A stretch of 64,000 nucleotides of DNA from Paraburkholderia sp. (GTDB lineage: Bacteria > Pseudomonadota > Gammaproteobacteria > Burkholderiales > Burkholderiaceae), in the NCBI GenBank assembly GCA_004322045.1, contig SCRN01000040.1, forward strand, positions 62,001 through 126,000, written 5' to 3'. Shown here one piece after another: positions 2 to 62,023 of the stretch. The stretch's first letter is position 1. Every line of letters starts with the position of its first letter. A program made the translations under genes and the position numbers. The notes under the pieces were generated by a model that saw only the letters and a program-made list of their open reading frames with translations, was not told where the DNA came from and did not search any database.

Positions 2-283
2 TATGAGCGGCCGCAGGCGGCCGACGCCGAGGCAGCTAGCCGCGCTCAGTTAGCAAGCCGCCTAAGCGGCCTATACGGGCAATCAGGCGCTCCCGTCGCG
101 CCGGCGAATCAGCCATATCAGGGTGATACCCAGGCGTCCCTGAGCCAGGGCGAATCGATCGTGAAAGTGGATATCCACTTGAAAGGCGCGCCGCACGGCA
201 CGCGCACGTCCGTGAGCTCGTCGCGCAACGTCGATACCAACGTGCGCACTGGTTCGACCATGGATCTCGGAGCAGCAACATGA
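2..283 (+). CDS. Phage tail tape measure protein, C-terminal part (5' end outside window)
   Basis: An open frame runs from the left edge to a TGA at 281-283 with no start codon of its own, so only the last 93 residues are visible. The segment is Ala/Gln-rich and then reads GESIVKVDIHLKGAPHGTR followed by VDTNVRTGSTM. That layout, with a hydrophilic linker, a VKVD beta-strand and an APxGTR turn, is usual at the end of tape measure proteins of Mu-like contractile-tailed phages. Tape measure proteins set tail length and line the tail lumen. Position supports this, because the gene lies directly before gpN and overlaps it by the four bases ATGA. The family call is inferred from a short tail and from context. 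Confidence 0.6.
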   Translation, partial: YERPQAADAEAASRAQLASRLSGLYGQSGAPVAPANQPYQGDTQASLSQGESIVKVDIHLKGAPHGTRTSVSSSRNVDTNVRTGSTMDLGAAT

Positions 284-1704
284 ATATTGGCGGCGGCGCG
301 GGCGCAGTGCTGGGCAGCATGTCTGGCATTTCCAATCTCGCCCAATCACTGTCGGCACGCCTGGGTGGTTCCATCGGCAGCTATTTCGAGCAGCTGCGGC
401 CGGCGTCGTTTCGCGGCATGCAATTTGTCTCACTCGGTGCGGACGGCACCTTTGGCCGGCGCAATGCGCTCCATGAATATCCGAAGCGAGACACGCCATG
501 GTCAGAGGACATGGGCCGCGCGGCTCGCCGGTTTCAGGTGACCGGTTACATCGTGGGGGATGACGTCATCCAGAAGCGCGACGTCATGATCAAGTTGTGC
601 GAGACGGAGGATACCGGCGAGCTCGTGCATCCGACATATGGGCGTCGCACTGTCAGCCTGATGGAATTCAGAGTGATCGAACGCTGGGACAAAGCGCGCT
701 ATTTCGAGCTCCAGTTCGATTTCGTCGAGAGCGGTGAAAGGGTTTTCCCGACTGCTGCGAATGCGACCACGAACCTCATCGCATCGGCGGTCAACGCGCT
801 TGGCTTGTCCGCAGCAGCCGATTTCGCCTCCCGCGTACTCAATACCCTGTCCTACGGTGCCGCAGTCGTTGGCATGGCGGTGAACACCGCGCTGTCGTGG
901 TACACGAATGCGAAAAACATCGTGGGCGATGCCCGGAACCTGGTTCGACTTGTCTTTAACCTGCCAGGCGCCTTCGGCCGATTTGCCGGGAGCGCGACGG
1001 TGCCTACCTTCAGCAAGTATCCCGGCGGCCCACGGGCGTCATCGCTCACTGTTGACGATCTCATCGAGCAGGCGACACAGGCGCGCACCGCAGTTTCGAC
1101 TGCGGCCAGCACACTCGCGACGGCAGCGGCCGCGCTCGGTACGAATTCGACGGCGGCTTTCGCCACGGCGGCGCAGGGCGTTGCAAGCGCCGTATTCGCG
1201 GCCGCGCCGGCGCCGGCGGATGCGATTCGGCTGTTGACCTCGCTGGCCACCTTCCAGCCGGCAACTCCTACCACTTCGTCGGTGATCGGCGTCGGAATGG
1301 CAACGATGCAATCTGCGTGTGGTGATTTGTTTCGGCGGGCCGCAATTGGATCTGCGGCGCTGGCAGCATCGCAATATCAGCCGACATCCGCGGACGATGC
1401 TGCGGCGATGCGCGACGCCTTGGCTGCGCTCATCGATAGCGAGATCGAGGTGGCAGGAAACCAAGGGGAAGACGGGACATACGGGGCGCTCCGATCGCTG
1501 CGCGCAGCTGTCGTCCAGGATTTGAACAAGCGGGGCGCCGGTCTGGCTTCGGTTAAGACGTTCAGCATGAAGGCGGGACTGCCGGCTTTAGTGCTCGCTC
1601 ATCGCCTATACCGGGATGCAGGACGCGCCGACGAGCTCGTCGCTCAGGTCGACCCGATCCACCCGGCTTTCATGCCCCTTAGCTTCCGCGCGCTTTCGTC
1701 CTGA
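280..1704 (+). CDS. DNA circularization protein, Mu gpN-like
   Basis: The product is a 474-residue virion protein of the phage Mu gpN family, a tail/baseplate component also named DNA circularisation protein. The N-terminal domain (about residues 40-150) has the family pattern RPASFRGMQF, then GRRNALHEYP and RFQVTGYIVGDD, ending near FDFVESGE. The rest is Ala-rich and probably helical. It starts inside the end of the tape measure gene (ATGA overlap) and stops two bases before the gpP gene, so it is translated with the baseplate cassette. In Mu-like phages this gene sits between the tape measure and gpP, as here. The family call is firm; the molecular role is known mainly by inference in the family. 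Confidence 0.85.
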   Translation: MNIGGGAGAVLGSMSGISNLAQSLSARLGGSIGSYFEQLRPASFRGMQFVSLGADGTFGRRNALHEYPKRDTPWSEDMGRAARRFQVTGYIVGDDVIQKRDVMIKLCETEDTGELVHPTYGRRTVSLMEFRVIERWDKARYFELQFDFVESGERVFPTAANATTNLIASAVNALGLSAAADFASRVLNTLSYGAAVVGMAVNTALSWYTNAKNIVGDARNLVRLVFNLPGAFGRFAGSATVPTFSKYPGGPRASSLTVDDLIEQATQARTAVSTAASTLATAAAALGTNSTAAFATAAQGVASAVFAAAPAPADAIRLLTSLATFQPATPTTSSVIGVGMATMQSACGDLFRRAAIGSAALAASQYQPTSADDAAAMRDALAALIDSEIEVAGNQGEDGTYGALRSLRAAVVQDLNKRGAGLASVKTFSMKAGLPALVLAHRLYRDAGRADELVAQVDPIHPAFMPLSFRALSS

Positions 1705-1706
1705 CC

Positions 1707-2780
1707 ATGGCAGACGACCTGACTCTGGTAATGGACGGCGTGAGCGTGTCCGGCTGGACAAAAATACGCGTCACTCGAGGTATCGAACGCCTTCCGAGCG
1801 ATTTCGATATCGAAATGACCGACCTGTACCCCGGCGACCTGAGCCAGGTGAGCGCTATTCCGGGGCAGGCCTGTCAGGTCGCGCTCGGCGGAGATGTGGC
1901 GATTACCGGATATGTCGACCGCGTCCACCCGGGTTTTGGTCGAGATTTCCATCGAATTCGCGTCGCGGGTCGTGGCAAATGTGAGGATCTGGTCGACTGC
2001 AGCGCGGAATGGGACGGTGGCCAGATCAGCGGTTCGAACGCGCTTCAGATCGCACAGAAGCTCGCTGCGCCCTACGGCATCAACGTGACCAGCGATGGAA
2101 ATAACGGGCCGAGCATCCCGCAATTCAATTTGATGATCGGCGAGACGCCGTTCGAGGTCATTGAGCGCATCGCGCGCTATGCAGGGTTGCTCGCATATGA
2201 CTTGCCGGACGGAAGCCTCAGGCTTGCCCGCGGCGGCGTCGATGCGCATGCCTCGGGCTTTACAGAAGGGCAAAACGTCGAGGAGGCCGATTTCGAATGG
2301 GGCGCTGATCTCAGATATTCCGAGATCGATTGCTACCTGTTGACCATGCAGACCATGGGCGACGCCGGCGTCAATCTCGTCCCGGTTGCCACTGCGCAAG
2401 ATGCGACGGTCGGGCGCCACCGCAAGCTATACATCGTTTCGGAGCAGGTGCAAGCCGGCCGGAACATTGCGCAAGAGCGGGCGAACTGGGAAGCGGCGCG
2501 GCGCGCGGGGCGATCTCAGGCAGTCCGAGTCGTGACTGATAGCTGGCGCGACGGCGATGGGCTGCTATGGACGCCGAACACGCTCGTGCCTGTAACGCTG
2601 CCGTTCCTAAAAATCCCCGACGAGACGTTCATGCTCATTTCCGAGGTGACCTATACGCTCGATGAGCACGGCACGCACGCTGATGTGCTGCTGATGCCGC
2701 CGGATGCGTTCAAACCGGAACCTACGATTCTGCAACCTCTTTCACCAGACGTCGTGCTCGGCGCCCCGAACGCTCCATGA
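1707..2780 (+). CDS. Baseplate hub protein, Mu gpP-like
   Basis: The product is a 357-residue protein of the Mu gpP (gp44) baseplate hub family, which forms the trimeric hub below the tail tube. It opens with the typical strand pattern LVMDGVSVSGWTKIRVTRG, then VERIARYAGLLAYDLPDGSL in the middle and a late TLDEHGTHADVLLMPPDAF. The start ATG follows the gpN stop by two bases, and the end overlaps the spike gene by ATGA at 2777-2780. This tight coupling fits co-translation of hub and spike, which bind each other in the virion. Length and order match Mu-like tails. Confidence 0.87.
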   Translation: MADDLTLVMDGVSVSGWTKIRVTRGIERLPSDFDIEMTDLYPGDLSQVSAIPGQACQVALGGDVAITGYVDRVHPGFGRDFHRIRVAGRGKCEDLVDCSAEWDGGQISGSNALQIAQKLAAPYGINVTSDGNNGPSIPQFNLMIGETPFEVIERIARYAGLLAYDLPDGSLRLARGGVDAHASGFTEGQNVEEADFEWGADLRYSEIDCYLLTMQTMGDAGVNLVPVATAQDATVGRHRKLYIVSEQVQAGRNIAQERANWEAARRAGRSQAVRVVTDSWRDGDGLLWTPNTLVPVTLPFLKIPDETFMLISEVTYTLDEHGTHADVLLMPPDAFKPEPTILQPLSPDVVLGAPNAP

Positions 2781-3337
2781 AGGCCTATCTCGATCGCACC
2801 GCGAGGCGAGTGATGAGCGCACTTGCGCAAGGCCTTGTAAAGCTTGTGAATGACAACGCCGGCATCCAGTTCATGCAGGTGAAGTTCAATCCGCTGCAGA
2901 CCATCGACAACCTGCCGCGCTGCGCGGAGTACGGGCTCACGTCGAACCCGCCCGAAGACTCCGACGCTGTGGTGGCATTCGCCGGCGGTGATCGTTCGAA
3001 TGGCGTCGTGATCGCGACGGGCAACGCCAAATACCGCATGAAGCAGCTGGCGACCGGTGAGGTGGCGATTCACGACAACATTGGGCAATCGATCTACCTG
3101 ACGGCAAGCGGGATCGTCATTAATGGCGGCGGCAACCCGATCCGGATGACGAATCTGACGAGACTTCGAGTCGAAGCGCCGATCGAAAGCACGGGGGACA
3201 TCACCGACAACTGCGATACGACCGGCCGAAGCATGGTCGGCGATCGAGAAATCTTTGACAGCCATCATCACGAGGTCAAGAACGTGCAGGGTGGAACGAG
3301 CACGGTCTCGTCCGAAGTTCCGACGCAACAGGAATAA
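2777..3337 (+). CDS. Baseplate central spike protein, Mu gp45-like (baseplate assembly protein V)
   Basis: The product is a 186-residue homologue of the membrane-piercing spike of Mu (gp45, also called baseplate assembly protein V). The N-terminal part is an OB-like domain with LPRCAEYGLTSNPPEDSDAV. The C-terminal half alternates short beta-strands, as expected for a triple-stranded beta-helix. Near the end is DSHHHEV, a His-rich motif like those that bind metal at the needle tip in this family. It overlaps the hub gene by four bases and is followed after three bases by the gp46 gene. Role and position both fit. The metal type cannot be read from sequence. Confidence 0.87.
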   Translation: MKAYLDRTARRVMSALAQGLVKLVNDNAGIQFMQVKFNPLQTIDNLPRCAEYGLTSNPPEDSDAVVAFAGGDRSNGVVIATGNAKYRMKQLATGEVAIHDNIGQSIYLTASGIVINGGGNPIRMTNLTRLRVEAPIESTGDITDNCDTTGRSMVGDREIFDSHHHEVKNVQGGTSTVSSEVPTQQE

Positions 3338-3340
3338 CCG

Positions 3341-3790
3341 ATGCCCGATATTTCGCTCATTTGGGACGTCGACAACAGCCGCGGCGACTGGCAACTGTCG
3401 GGCCCTGTGCTCGTCACCGGCAACGATCTTGCGAGCGCTACGCTCATCAGTCTGTTCACCGATCGCACCGCTAATCCCGACGACGTGATTCCGGACGGCA
3501 CCGACGACCCGCGAGGCTGGTGGGGCGACCTCGGCGAGGACCGGCCGATCGGTTCGCGCCTGTGGCTGCTCTCTCGAGCCAAGCAGACGCAGGAGACGCT
3601 AAACAACGCCGTCGACTATGCAAAGGAGGCGCTCGAGTGGTTCATCGACGACGGCGTGGCGGCGCGCATCGACGTATTTGCCCAATGGGTGCGTACATCT
3701 TTTCTCGGCCTGCAGGTCATCCTCTACAACCAAGACGGCACCACGATAGCGTCGCTCAGCTACGCATGGGCCTGGAAACAGATCGTCTGA
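3341..3790 (+). CDS. Baseplate wedge protein, Mu gp46-like
   Basis: The product is a 149-residue protein of the Mu gp46 family, which is related to the T4 gp25 wedge component. Family marks are the early WDVDNSRGDW, then LISLFTDR and the Asp/Trp-rich stretch DGTDDPRGWWGDLGEDRPIG. The long helix around ETLNNAVDYAKEALEWFIDDG follows. It lies between spike and gp47 genes with only a few bases on either side, the fixed order in Mu-like baseplate operons. It probably connects the tail sheath initiator and the wedge. No unusual residues are apparent. Confidence 0.85.
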   Translation: MPDISLIWDVDNSRGDWQLSGPVLVTGNDLASATLISLFTDRTANPDDVIPDGTDDPRGWWGDLGEDRPIGSRLWLLSRAKQTQETLNNAVDYAKEALEWFIDDGVAARIDVFAQWVRTSFLGLQVILYNQDGTTIASLSYAWAWKQIV

Positions 3791-3791
3791 C

Positions 3792-4952
3792 ATGCCATAC
3801 GCTCGAAAAACACTCGCGCAGATCCGCTCTGACGCGCTCGCCGACATTTCGGCGGCGCTGGAGGGATCGGATCCGTTGCTGCGCTATGCGGCGCTGAAGA
3901 TTATCGGCGTCGTGCTGTCCGGCATGACCAACGAGGAATATGGTTATCTCGACTGGATCTCGAAACAGACCAATCCCTTTACAGCCGAAGGTGAGTTTCT
4001 CGAAGCTTGGGGTGCGCTGAAGAAGGTCTATCGAAAGGATGCGAGTAAAGCCATCTTGACTGCGGCTTTCACTGGTGTGGCGGGAAAGACTCTCGACGAC
4101 GGCACGCCGGTTGATCGTAGTGACGGCGTGCCTTATATGAGTTCGGGCACGGCCATTGTTGTCGGCACGTCCGTTTCTGTGACGATCGTTGCTAACGTCG
4201 CGGGCGCAGCCGGCAACGCAGACGTTGGCACTGTGGTCTCGCTCGGCGTTGCCGTGGACGGAATTCAATCGACGGGCAGCGTGACGGGAATCGTCTCGTC
4301 AGGGGCGGACATTGAGGATCAGGAAGAGTACCGCGCACGCGTGCTTGATGCGTATCAAAATCCGCCTCAGGGAGGCAACCGGAGCGACTACGTTGAATGG
4401 GCGCTCAAAGTCTCGGGTGTGACCCGCGCGTGGTGCGCTCCGAATGGATTCGGGGCCGGCACGGTCGTTGTCTATGTGATGCTCGACGAGGCGCAAGTCA
4501 ATAACGGCGGCTTTCCACAGGGTACGAACGGCGTCTCGCAGTTTGACCAGGGGCCGGGCGGCCTGCCGCGGGATACACCCGCCACCGGCGATCAGTTGGT
4601 TGTGGCCGACGCATTAGTGACGCTTGAGCCCGTGACCGCGCTGGTATACGCATGTGCGCCTATCAGAAACACGCTCTCATTCGTGATCAGCGGCCTCGCC
4701 ACGGCTTCGACGACCACGCGCGCGGCAATAGCGAATGAGATCACGGATGTCTTTTTTCGCAATGGCGATCCTCGAGCGGGAACGATTAATCGATCCGATA
4801 TCAACACGGCAATCGCCACAGTGCCTGGCACGGCGGGATTTGTTATCGAGTCGATTACGGGCGTGATCAACGGCGTCACGACGCCATATCCCGACAACAT
4901 CACCGGCAGCTTCGGCGCGCTACCGGTGTTAGGCACCGTGACGTACAGCTGA
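3792..4952 (+). CDS. Baseplate J-like protein, Mu gp47-like
   Basis: The product is a 386-residue baseplate J protein (Mu gp47, P2 gpJ superfamily), a wedge component that links hub to fibres. The N-terminus has the helix ARKTLAQIRSDALADISAAL, followed by the WISKQTNPFTAEGEFLEAWGAL segment that is diagnostic for the family. The Gly/Val-rich middle domain leads to EEYRARVLDAYQNPPQGGN and a C-terminal domain with DINTAIATVPG. Length matches the Mu protein. It starts one base after the gp46 stop and ends three bases before the gp48 gene. Confidence 0.9.
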   Translation: MPYARKTLAQIRSDALADISAALEGSDPLLRYAALKIIGVVLSGMTNEEYGYLDWISKQTNPFTAEGEFLEAWGALKKVYRKDASKAILTAAFTGVAGKTLDDGTPVDRSDGVPYMSSGTAIVVGTSVSVTIVANVAGAAGNADVGTVVSLGVAVDGIQSTGSVTGIVSSGADIEDQEEYRARVLDAYQNPPQGGNRSDYVEWALKVSGVTRAWCAPNGFGAGTVVVYVMLDEAQVNNGGFPQGTNGVSQFDQGPGGLPRDTPATGDQLVVADALVTLEPVTALVYACAPIRNTLSFVISGLATASTTTRAAIANEITDVFFRNGDPRAGTINRSDINTAIATVPGTAGFVIESITGVINGVTTPYPDNITGSFGALPVLGTVTYS

Positions 4953-29869: not shown

Positions 29870-32305
29870 ATGAACGCACCGTCGAACGATCCGCAACTCG
29901 AATCGCTGAAAGTCCCGCCGCATTCGATCGAGGCCGAGCAATCGGTGCTCGGCGGCTTGCTGCTCGACAACGCAGCGTGGGACCGCATTGCCGATTTCTT
30001 GTCCCAGGGCGATTTTTACCGTTACGACCACCGGATCATTTACGAGCACATCGGGCGGCTCATCGCCGCGACGCGGCCTGCCGACGTGGTCACGGTGTAC
30101 GAAGCGCTGACGACATCGGGCAAAGCAGAGGATGTCGGCGGGCTGTCGTATTTGAACGCGCTGGCCCAGAACACACCGAGTGCGGCGAACATTCGGCGCT
30201 ACGCCGAAATCGTCCGCGATCGGGCGGTATTGCGCCGCCTCGTCTCCGTTGCCGATGAAATTTCCGCCGACGCGTTCAATCCGCAGGGCAAGGAAGTCCG
30301 GCAACTGTTGGACGAGGCCGAATCGAAAGTGTTTTCGATTGCGGAGGAAGGTTCGCGCGGCACACAAGGCTTCCTCGAGATCGGCCCGCTGCTCACGCAG
30401 GTGGTCGAGCGCATCGATACGCTTTATCACACGGCCAATCCCAGCGACGTCACGGGCACGCCCACGGGCTTCGCCGATCTCGACCGGATGACCTCCGGCA
30501 TGCACGGGGGCGAACTCATCATCGTGGCGGGACGCCCGTCGATGGGTAAGGCCCAGCCGCTCGATGCGCGGATCAAAACGCTATCGGGCTGGAAACGCAT
30601 GGGCGAGCTGCGGCTCGGCGATGCATTGGCGTCGGTGGACGGGGCGCCGTCCAGGGTGACGGGCATTTTTCCGCAAGGCGATCGGCAGGTTTATCGCGTT
30701 CGATTTTCGGATGGCCGCTCGGCCGAATGCTGCGACGAACACCTTTGGCGCGTGCATTGCCGTGACTGGCGAGCGCCGCGCGTTGTCGACACCGCTCACT
30801 TGCGTACACTGCTGAGTCGCAAGCGATATCGAAACCGTTTGTCGATCGATGTGCCGAGCGGTGATTTCGGCCACGGGCAAGCGCTACCGATCGATCCTTG
30901 GGTGCTCGGCGCGTTGCTCGGGGACAGCGCGATCGGTACAAGCTCGATACGGTTCGGCTCCAAGACGCAAGAAGCCTTCGCGCGTATGCGGGCGAGCGCG
31001 CACGCCACCGCCGCGGTGCAGTGCGGCGATTGGCGTGCGCGTGATCCGGGAATCTCGGGCCGCGATCACAGTGAGCCGGGTGCAGGTCTCAGAGTCGACC
31101 CGCTCGAGCAGGCGCTCGAGCGCCTCAGGCTCTGGGGCTGCACGAGCCATGACACATTCGTTCCGCGCGCGTACTTGGATGCCGCGAAGCCCGAGCGCCA
31201 GGACTTGCTCAGTGGGCTGCTGGACACGTGCGGTCGTATCGACGCCTCGGGCGCGGTACGCTATTGCACGGCAAGCGCGCGGCTCGCGGGCGATGTTTGC
31301 GAACTCGTGCGCTCGCTTGGAGGCTGGTGCTCGGTGTCGGAAGAACCGGCGAGCTCGATCGGCAACGGTCAGGCCGATCCAGGCGCGAGGACCTACCATT
31401 GCACGATCCGCCACCCGGAACCGCAAGGCCTGTTTCTTTTCGATGGCGATTGCGAGCGCCCTGGCCGCGACTCACGCCCGAGCAACATGCCGATCCTCGT
31501 GTCGATCGAGCCGACGCGGCGCGCGCCGACGCAATGCATCTCGGTGTCTCATCCGTCGCGTCTGTATGTGACCGACGACTACGTCGTGACGCACAACACG
31601 GCTTTTTCGATGAACATCGGCGAATACGTCGCCGTCGAATATGGGCTGCCTGTCGCCGTGTTCTCGATGGAAATGCCTGGCACGCAACTCGTCATGCGGA
31701 TGCTCGGCTCGGTCGGCCGGCTCGACCAACATCGAATGCGCACGGGGCGCTTGACCGACGAAGATTGGCCCAAGCTCACTCACGCCGTGCAAAAAATGAG
31801 CGAGGCCCAGTTGTTCATCGACGAGACGGGCGGCTTGAATCCGATGGAGTTGCGCTCGCGCGCGCGACGCTTGGCGCGTCAATGCGGCAAGCTCGGGCTC
31901 ATCATCGTCGATTACTTGCAGCTGATGTCGGGTTCGTCGTCCGGAGAGAACCGCGCAACGGAAATCTCCGAAATCTCGCGCTCGCTCAAGAGCCTCGCCA
32001 AGGAACTCGACGTGCCGGTCATCGCGCTGTCGCAGTTGAACCGCGGCTTGGAGCAGCGCCCGAACAAGCGCCCAGTCATGTCGGACTTGCGCGAGTCCGG
32101 TGCAATCGAACAGGACGCGGACGTCATTCTTTTTATTTACCGCGACGAAGTGTACAACCCCGACAGCCCCGACAAGGGCACGGCCGAAATCATCATCGGC
32201 AAGCAGCGTAACGGTCCCATCGGGCCTATACGGCTCACGTTCATGGGGCAATACACGAAGTTCGACAATTTTGCCGGCCCGCAGTCGTTCTACGGGGCCG
32301 AGTAG
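29870..32305 (+). CDS. dnaB: Replicative DNA helicase DnaB, split by an in-frame intein
   Basis: The frame is 811 codons, against about 460 for a usual DnaB. Residues 1-227 and 577-811 form a normal helicase of 462 residues; residues 228-576 are an intein. The N-terminal extein shows HSIEAEQSVLGGLLLDN and TGFADLDRMTSG. The Walker A motif GRPSMGK is cut off from its T by the intein and resumes TAFSMNIGEY. Later motifs are GLIIVDYLQLMSG, LSQLNRGLEQRPNKRP, SGAIEQDADVILFIYR and IIIGKQRNGP. DnaB unwinds DNA at the fork as a hexamer. Without splicing the P-loop is broken, so the unspliced chain should be inactive. The only dnaB in the window; replication would depend on splicing. Confidence 0.97.
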   Translation: MNAPSNDPQLESLKVPPHSIEAEQSVLGGLLLDNAAWDRIADFLSQGDFYRYDHRIIYEHIGRLIAATRPADVVTVYEALTTSGKAEDVGGLSYLNALAQNTPSAANIRRYAEIVRDRAVLRRLVSVADEISADAFNPQGKEVRQLLDEAESKVFSIAEEGSRGTQGFLEIGPLLTQVVERIDTLYHTANPSDVTGTPTGFADLDRMTSGMHGGELIIVAGRPSMGKAQPLDARIKTLSGWKRMGELRLGDALASVDGAPSRVTGIFPQGDRQVYRVRFSDGRSAECCDEHLWRVHCRDWRAPRVVDTAHLRTLLSRKRYRNRLSIDVPSGDFGHGQALPIDPWVLGALLGDSAIGTSSIRFGSKTQEAFARMRASAHATAAVQCGDWRARDPGISGRDHSEPGAGLRVDPLEQALERLRLWGCTSHDTFVPRAYLDAAKPERQDLLSGLLDTCGRIDASGAVRYCTASARLAGDVCELVRSLGGWCSVSEEPASSIGNGQADPGARTYHCTIRHPEPQGLFLFDGDCERPGRDSRPSNMPILVSIEPTRRAPTQCISVSHPSRLYVTDDYVVTHNTAFSMNIGEYVAVEYGLPVAVFSMEMPGTQLVMRMLGSVGRLDQHRMRTGRLTDEDWPKLTHAVQKMSEAQLFIDETGGLNPMELRSRARRLARQCGKLGLIIVDYLQLMSGSSSGENRATEISEISRSLKSLAKELDVPVIALSQLNRGLEQRPNKRPVMSDLRESGAIEQDADVILFIYRDEVYNPDSPDKGTAEIIIGKQRNGPIGPIRLTFMGQYTKFDNFAGPQSFYGAE
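30551..31597 (+). mobile_element. Class 3-type intein with LAGLIDADG endonuclease region in DnaB
   Basis: The intein is 349 residues long and is inserted after Lys227 of the Walker A motif. Its first residue is Ala228, not Cys or Ser, so the usual first nucleophile is missing. Block B is SAECCDEHLWRV with His291 and Trp293; block F starts at Cys556 (TQCISVSHPS); block G is VVTHN with Thr574, His575 and Asn576. The +1 extein residue is Thr577. Trp, Cys and Thr at these places form the WCT signature of class 3 inteins, in which the block F Cys starts splicing. The middle holds two LAGLIDADG-type motifs, VLGALLGDS (Asp352) and LSGLLDTCG, the latter with Cys454 where the catalytic acid should be. 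Base composition resembles the host gene, suggesting old acquisition. Confidence 0.93.
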
Positions 32306-61738: not shown

Positions 61739-62023
61739 GGTGTTTCCTTTGGTCGGGCGGTAGCCAACCCACGCTGCGGCGCCGGCAGTCTAGGGCTCCC
61801 CACGGAGCCGACATGCGGCACGCCCAAGGCGCAAGCCACTTGCCTAAGGTCGAAAAACGGCGATTATGCCAGAAAATCAGCTGGTTGACGAATTTTCACG
61901 TTCATCGTGTTGTGCCGTCAGCGTCCAACACAAAGACGATGGGCGTCGCGCTCCACGCGTTGTCTCGGCGACAGGACGAGCTCGAGCTGTCCAGAGAACC
62001 GAGCCCCGGGCGGGCTCGGGCAT

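Follow-up and report, generated by a model that had tools for sequence, protein, structure and literature searches.

Class 3 inteins, a minority type, have no nucleophile at position 1. In the definition given in PMC5222942 they carry a Trp at B:12, a Cys at F:4 and a Thr at G:5 (the WCT triplet), together with a His at B:10 and a terminal His-Asn (G:6-G:7), and the residue that follows them (+1) is described as Ser or Thr in all but one, the exception being the Cys of Bvi IcmO. DnaBi1 of M. smegmatis is described as lying at site b, in the P-loop of the helicase (PMC6195587), and Lys^Thr is named as the classic P-loop insertion (PMC5050341). We have analyzed a stretch of 64,000 nucleotides of Paraburkholderia sp. 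(the window; positions 62,001 to 126,000 of contig SCRN01000040.1, assembly GCA_004322045.1) in which the replicative helicase gene dnaB is interrupted at this same point. We consider it highly probable (about 0.9) that the insert, which sits in the ATP-binding loop of chromosomal DnaB, is a full-length class 3 intein that still splices and no longer homes. The direct basis for this reading is the sequence itself, the junctions, the diagnostic residues, the fold match, the selection pattern and a patchy distribution; from these we infer the splicing chemistry and the loss of cleavage. The gene and its parts are as follows.

29870..32305, + strand: dnaB, intein-bearing replicative helicase, 811 amino acids (ORF (open reading frame) translation, Pfam and NCBIfam matches)
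29870..30550, + strand: N-extein, 227 codons, last residues GRPSMGK (comparison with intein-free DnaB)
30551..31597, + strand: class 3 intein, 349 amino acids, A1 to N349, at the Walker A (DnaB-b) site
31598..32302, + strand: C-extein, 235 codons, first residue Thr+1 (comparison with intein-free DnaB)

A first-pass annotation of the window had judged the dnaB frame to be about 350 codons too long, and this is borne out by the 811-residue ORF, within which positions 30551-31597 form an in-frame insert of 349 stop-free codons. The product matches NF005424 (replicative DNA helicase, NCBIfam) with 988.6 bits against a cut-off of 834. Both the N- and C-terminal domains of DnaB are detected, and the DnaB_C match is split into two stretches that flank the insert. 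In all 19 intein-free DnaBs that were extracted, 14 of them viewed as DNA, RPSMGK is followed directly by T; the window reads RPSMGK-[AQPLDA...VVTHN]-TAFSMN. Since the intein-free alleles read K then T there, the ends of the insert are exact, at K227^A228 and N576^T577, and the predicted spliced product has 811 - 349 = 462 residues. The insertion, GRPSMGK^T, thus falls in the P-loop ahead of the conserved Ser/Thr, as in DnaB-b alleles, and homologous inserts in relatives occupy the identical codon boundary. In a comparison with known inteins, which had been recommended, the insert matches solved class 3 inteins (6bs8, E-value 1.8e-8). The insert is not a chance feature, because DnaB_C is split around it, a class 3 intein matches it and homologues occupy the same site. 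Between the window and G009, the nearest intein-free genome among those of the genus that were compared, extein identity is 96.9%.

The residues on which the class assignment turns are these.

30740..30748, + strand: block B His64 and Trp66 (HLW) (95-row alignment)
31535..31537, + strand: block F Cys329 (Cys556 of the protein), the presumed first nucleophile (95-row alignment)
31589..31600, + strand: block G Thr347-His348-Asn349 plus Thr+1 (95-row alignment)

Ala228, Trp293, Cys556 and Thr574, the residues singled out in the first-pass annotation, are indeed intein positions 1, 66, 329 and 347. Position 1 is Ala, thus not the Cys, Ser or Thr of a class 1 intein, and the WCT triplet is complete (W66 at B:12, C329 at F:4, T347 at G:5). 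With H64 at B:10, the terminal H348 and N349 (G:6 and G:7) and Thr577 as the +1 residue, all sequence-level features of class 3 are present. Conservation was assessed across 95 aligned inteins, each distinct in sequence (duplicates were collapsed; L073, partial, and L134, with a broken frame, were excluded), 34 of them found via whole-genome search and 61 only via a scan seeded with six peptide patterns, including ECCDEHLW. Ala1, His64, Trp66, Cys329, Thr347, His348, Asn349 and Thr+1 are each invariant in 95/95 rows (34/34 and 61/61, respectively). The HN end and T+1 belonged to the extraction pattern for many rows, so this conservation is partly built in; Ala1, Trp66, Cys329 and Thr347 lay outside the pattern. 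Phage and plasmid loci identified by tblastn have HxW in block B, the block F Cys and THN in 12 of 12 cases. The AlphaFold model shows the HINT fold, which is common to all intein classes, and its splicing domain matches the solved class 3 M. smegmatis DnaB intein.

By the class 3 chemistry set out in PMC5222942, Cys329, aided by His64 and Trp66 in the core, would attack the Lys227-Ala228 bond and accept the N-extein, which would then pass to Thr+1. Cyclisation of Asn349 would free the intein, an acyl shift would follow, and the exteins, joined as GRPSMGKT, would form the 462-residue helicase with its Walker A motif whole again. With Walker A divided by the insert between its Lys and its Thr, the precursor would probably lack ATPase activity until spliced, which is called a reasonable assumption for DnaBi1 (PMC6195587). 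A search of the genome with PF03796 revealed no second dnaB: two of its three matches are the halves of the window gene, and the third, a weak one (L003), reads as RadA, named by eye from the sequence.

The middle of the insert is a LAGLIDADG endonuclease domain, absent from the first-pass annotation.

30827..31411, + strand: degenerate LAGLIDADG endonuclease domain, intein residues 93-287 (profile A1 alignment)
30902..30928, + strand: block C, VLGALLGDS, with Asp125 retained and Ser126 replacing the usual Gly (95-row alignment)
31154..31156, + strand: block D Thr202, Lys in 93/95 rows (aligned with PI-SceI Lys301)
31229..31231, + strand: block E Cys227, Asp in 90/95 rows (aligned with PI-SceI Asp326)

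Profile A1 positions 93-287 align with PI-SceI 184-386 (E-value 8.6e-14), which identifies a homologous domain with two LAGLIDADG motifs, and the AlphaFold model matches the whole of PI-SceI. Counted along the alignment, Asp125 and positions 202 and 227 fall on PI-SceI Asp218, Lys301 and Asp326, which we take to be catalytic. An active LAGLIDADG enzyme would have an acid closing both motifs and the block D Lys; only Asp125 remains in the window. Positions 202/227 are Lys/Asp in Trinickia dinghuensis, T. diaoshuihuensis and T. mobilis, Lys/Gly in Trinickia sp. Y13 and Lys/Asn in T. soli. Position 126 is Gly in 93/95 rows and Ser in 2/95, the window and Y13. The window also has charge changes at conserved endonuclease positions (R167G, N183D, K265E and K300D) in addition to G126S and I204V. 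N183D is common to the window, Y13 and T. soli, and codon 300 is GAT in the window and Y13 and AAT in T. soli, while the remaining eight rows that were displayed have AAG. This pattern reads as a stepwise decay that began before the window, Y13 and T. soli separated, parallel change being possible as well. Of 48 endonuclease positions that are the same in 90% or more of the remaining rows of the alignment, 8 differ in the window; of 59 such positions in the splicing region, none does (0 of 59). The median over the 95 rows is 1 deviation for each region. By these residues the endonuclease has decayed, and it has probably lost cleavage. The richness of the insert in Cys (12 residues) was also considered and set aside as without meaning: the count includes the decayed Cys227 as well as further residues of the endonuclease.

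The two parts of the intein differ in their ratios of non-synonymous to synonymous substitution (dN/dS), estimated from NG86 counts with boundaries chosen in this analysis (splicing region, residues 1-100 plus 312-349; endonuclease, 101-311). Between the window and Y13, dN/dS is 0.048 for the splicing region, 0.036 for the extein and 0.431 for the endonuclease (bootstrap 0.25-0.70); the non-synonymous to synonymous counts are 3:19 for splicing and 48:34 for the endonuclease (Fisher p 2e-4). Six of seven other bootstrapped pairs have endonuclease values of 0.093-0.172, and one has 0.302. The endonuclease counts of the window-Y13 pair differ from those of the four of these seven pairs that were compared (Fisher p 0.003, 0.024, 0.007 and 6e-5). 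Further pairs in which the window, Y13 or T. soli is set against another row give 0.186-0.342; the pairs G003-G258, G007-G258 and G043-G268 give 0.110-0.168. DnaB is essential, and since it is needed, the ability to splice would have been kept. The intein family is one spread by its LAGLIDADG endonuclease; in the window's lineage this domain has decayed, and the insert is now most likely passed on with its host gene.

The intein is not as isolated as the first-pass annotation implied. Counting matches at E-values up to 0.001 and including the window's own genome, homologues occur in 5 of 11 genomes of the genus and in 50 of 398 of the family, 45 of the 398 having full-length inserts in frames of 807-837 amino acids (our own count). 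Matches are found in 76 of 186 genomes of genus g13 (probably Polynucleobacter), 70 of these over the whole query, in 11/65 of genus g12 (probably Burkholderia), in 18/300 of the order and in 4/369 of the class. The closest named intein, that of Trinickia sp. Y13, is 87% identical to the window's; the other carriers of the genus match T. soli, T. dinghuensis and T. diaoshuihuensis, and the window is accordingly taken to be probably from a Trinickia (Betaproteobacteria, Burkholderiaceae). For 16 family carriers besides Y13, identity to the window is 62.2-69.6% in the intein and 94.7-97.3% in the extein. On a DNA tree of 33 chosen DnaB exteins (G006, whose locus failed the extraction pattern, was excluded), intein presence changes 10 times, 7 of these forced by starred branches; shuffled labels gave a mean of 11.2 changes, and 147 of 500 shuffles were as low as observed. 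The intein of Paraburkholderia phosphatilytica (G258) nests within the Trinickia intein clade (six rows, support 100/98), and an extein clade matching it is rejected by the approximately unbiased test (p-AU 6e-64). The test does not reject an extein clade formed by T. soli, Y13 and the window (p-AU 0.193), and it rejects the extension of this clade by the other two genus carriers (1.9e-5). Because the three-member grouping is not rejected, we do not claim that an already degraded form of the intein was transferred. The family as a whole moves horizontally; the window's copy looks unable to do so now.

Several other loci came to light in these searches. The intein of Dyella flagellata (Gammaproteobacteria; L061, 4001-5038) is 62.4% identical to the window's while its extein is only 57.9% identical, which on these values is a case of transfer between beta- and gamma-proteobacteria. 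In the Burkholderiaceae metagenome-assembled genome Prado198 (L134, 4001-4965) the best segment is 77% identical to the window intein and the frame is broken by three stops, from either an assembly error or a decayed copy. Four g13 genomes (G451, G464, G526 and G540) have frames of 966-971 amino acids in which the intein is matched only in parts; their insert may be a longer form. G1156 (L189, C2:354400-358900, ORF 185-3904), a relative from within the order, encodes a DnaB of 1239 amino acids with two inteins, one of class 3 at GK^T and a second, with a CVAGDT start and an HN^S end, at DLRE^SGAIEQDAD; the 1261-residue frame of G993 may resemble it, and M. smegmatis DnaB is likewise described with two inteins (PMC6195587). 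The genome matching T. dinghuensis (G003, L136 C45:119500-124500, ORF from 1738) has a second, distant class 3-like intein, with DADHLW in block B and the end VPTHN^T, in an apparent phage terminase large subunit, so that two class 3-type inteins coexist there.

Some of the results weigh against our reading. Class 1 inteins match the modelled splicing domain nearly as well as class 3 inteins do: the Prp8 inteins (18.9 and 18.8) tie with 6bs8 in fold, and gp41-1 is lower by only 1.2. With profile A1 the native class 1 gp41-1 (6qaz) scores 49.0 bits, compared with 48.3 for 6rix and 47.8 for 6bs8; gp41-1 engineered with F65W/D107C (6riz) scores 60.4. Overall similarity leaves the class undecided and was dropped as evidence for it. 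As regards the endonuclease, 11 of the 95 rows, each at most 48% identical to the window, equal or exceed its number of deviations. The pair G416-G145, with intact motifs, is also raised (0.302, 0.133-0.646), and it lies outside the four of seven pairs covered by the Fisher comparison. The domain may also still be under some constraint, its dN/dS of 0.43 being less than 1.

Because class 1 inteins match the fold almost equally, it is the residue signature that carries the class assignment, and by this signature the insert is supported as a class 3 intein. A class 1 or class 2 intein, in which a misread N-terminus hid a Cys or Ser or Thr+1 attacked the N-terminal junction directly, could draw on the profile score of native gp41-1, its closeness in fold and the presence of Thr+1. 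However, the misread N-terminus that the first-pass annotation had raised as an objection is excluded, since intein-free alleles set the junction at K^T and residue 1 is Ala. Cys F:4 with Trp B:12 is the class 3 signature as given in PMC5222942; Cys329 is found in 95/95 rows and the block F Cys in 12/12 phage and plasmid loci, and a conserved Cys at F:4 argues against direct attack by the +1 residue. We therefore regard a class 1 or 2 intein as highly improbable. It is extremely unlikely that the intein is dead, with DnaB either broken or functional unspliced. One non-functional intein of the class 3 lineage is known, the pseudogene intein of Arthrobacter FB24, but it is described as having no Cys F:4, Asn in place of His B:10 and exteins totalling 66 residues (PMC3196547). 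The window has these residues in an open frame, with exteins that remain close to those of intein-free G009; its splicing domain evolves at a dN/dS of 0.048, and the genome search gave no other dnaB.

That the intein is still mobile and its endonuclease functional would agree with the intact frame, with the retained Asp125 of block C and with the movement of intact-motif family members between hosts. It is nevertheless very unlikely in view of Thr202 and Cys227 where the profile aligns PI-SceI Lys301 and Asp326, the charge changes with G126S and I204V, and the raised dN/dS; in addition, no second copy of the intein family was found in the genome at E-values up to 1. Retention of the intein as a regulator, with DnaB splicing dependent on redox state or metal, as is reported for the mycobacterial DnaB intein of this site, and so coupling replication to stress, seems to us unlikely. 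Site and class are those of M. smegmatis DnaBi1, whose splicing is reported to be inhibited by peroxide (PMC6195587), and the splicing domain is conserved while the endonuclease decays. But splicing would be under constraint even if nothing were regulated, the window intein has Val47 where DnaBi1 has its redox partner Cys48, and the patchy presence of the intein shows that the genus can do without it. The block B pair C60-C61 was considered as a redox switch and not used: it occurs in 34/34 whole-genome-search rows, but the 61 others were seeded with ECCDEHLW, it is found in only 1 of 12 phage and plasmid loci, and L152, L164 and L165 lack it. More specifically, a class 3 intein that has lost homing could have been retained in this probable Trinickia lineage as a means of halting replication during oxidative or metal stress, through conditional splicing of DnaB. 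We regard this as very unlikely; if true, a dead selfish element would have become a post-translational switch in a beta-proteobacterium. The reading that we prefer thus remains a class 3 intein that splices and has lost homing.

The dnaB gene follows rpsF-, priB-, rpsR- and rplI-like ORFs (named from their translations), all on the + strand. No Pfam family scores above its cut-off within the insert. Residues 21-75 (30611-30775) weakly match DUF7241 (17.4 bits, cut-off 27), a domain of unknown function that may be part of a HINT fold. The only NCBIfam match to the insert is NF005852 (replicative DNA helicase, PRK07773), with 33.4 bits against a cut-off of 780. Six PHROGs families match, the best being phrog_510 (DNA primase, 2.8e-34); these are taken to be phage proteins that carry such inteins.

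Class 3 inteins at DnaB-b and degenerate intein endonucleases have each been published already, and a search of the literature, in a partial collection, found no publication on the beta-proteobacterial DnaB intein family. The window adds a full-length class 3 intein with an endonuclease remnant in the chromosomal dnaB of a beta-proteobacterium, and leaves the known splicing chemistry unchanged. Its value lies in the company it keeps, as one genus offers the window allele, relatives with intact motifs and intein-free sister genomes. The window, Trinickia sp. Y13, T. soli, T. dinghuensis, T. diaoshuihuensis and the intein-free genomes form a series on which degeneration, as a step in the homing cycle, could be tested, and the same series suits the question of whether class 3 splicing needs an endonuclease scaffold.

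PI-SceI, the yeast VMA intein, is a class 1 intein with an active endonuclease, and it resides in a eukaryotic gene, unlike the bacterial dnaB of the window. The PhoVMA intein of Pyrococcus horikoshii (7qst), also class 1, has a truncated block E too; its host is an archaeal V-ATPase. Similar inteins are found in phages: 503 of 50,697 phage records match, 453 of these covering 80% of the query or more. Identity to the window stays below 60% in all 503, and the best among the matches listed has 36.5%. Phage class 3 inteins in P-loop ATPases (helicases of jumbo phages, terminases of mycobacteriophages) have HxW, the block F Cys and THN in 10/10 of the phage loci read and GK immediately before the insert in 8/10, as in GK^T of the window. 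Their host proteins, as annotated, differ from the window's (SNF2-type helicase, terminase, primase-helicase), although that of phage LucasX is annotated as DnaB. In Mycobacterium phage Phrappuccino (L180, 601-1659), Ala1, HxW, the block F Cys and THN are accompanied by Cys at +1. Of the solved class 3 inteins, those of M. smegmatis (DnaBi1, 6bs8) and M. chimaera (DnaB1, 6rix and 6riy) have chains of 139-146 residues, compared with 349 in the window. DnaBi1 is described as a mini-intein without endonuclease and with Ser+1 (PMC6195587), whereas the window intein has Thr+1 and retains a decayed LAGLIDADG domain. The DnaB-b inteins of other beta-proteobacteria (Burkholderia, Paraburkholderia, Polynucleobacter, Rhizobacter and others) share its site and blocks, are 342-370 amino acids long and have an endonuclease homologous to that of the window; their motifs are mostly of the GDG / K / DTDG type, where the window has GDS / T / DTCG.
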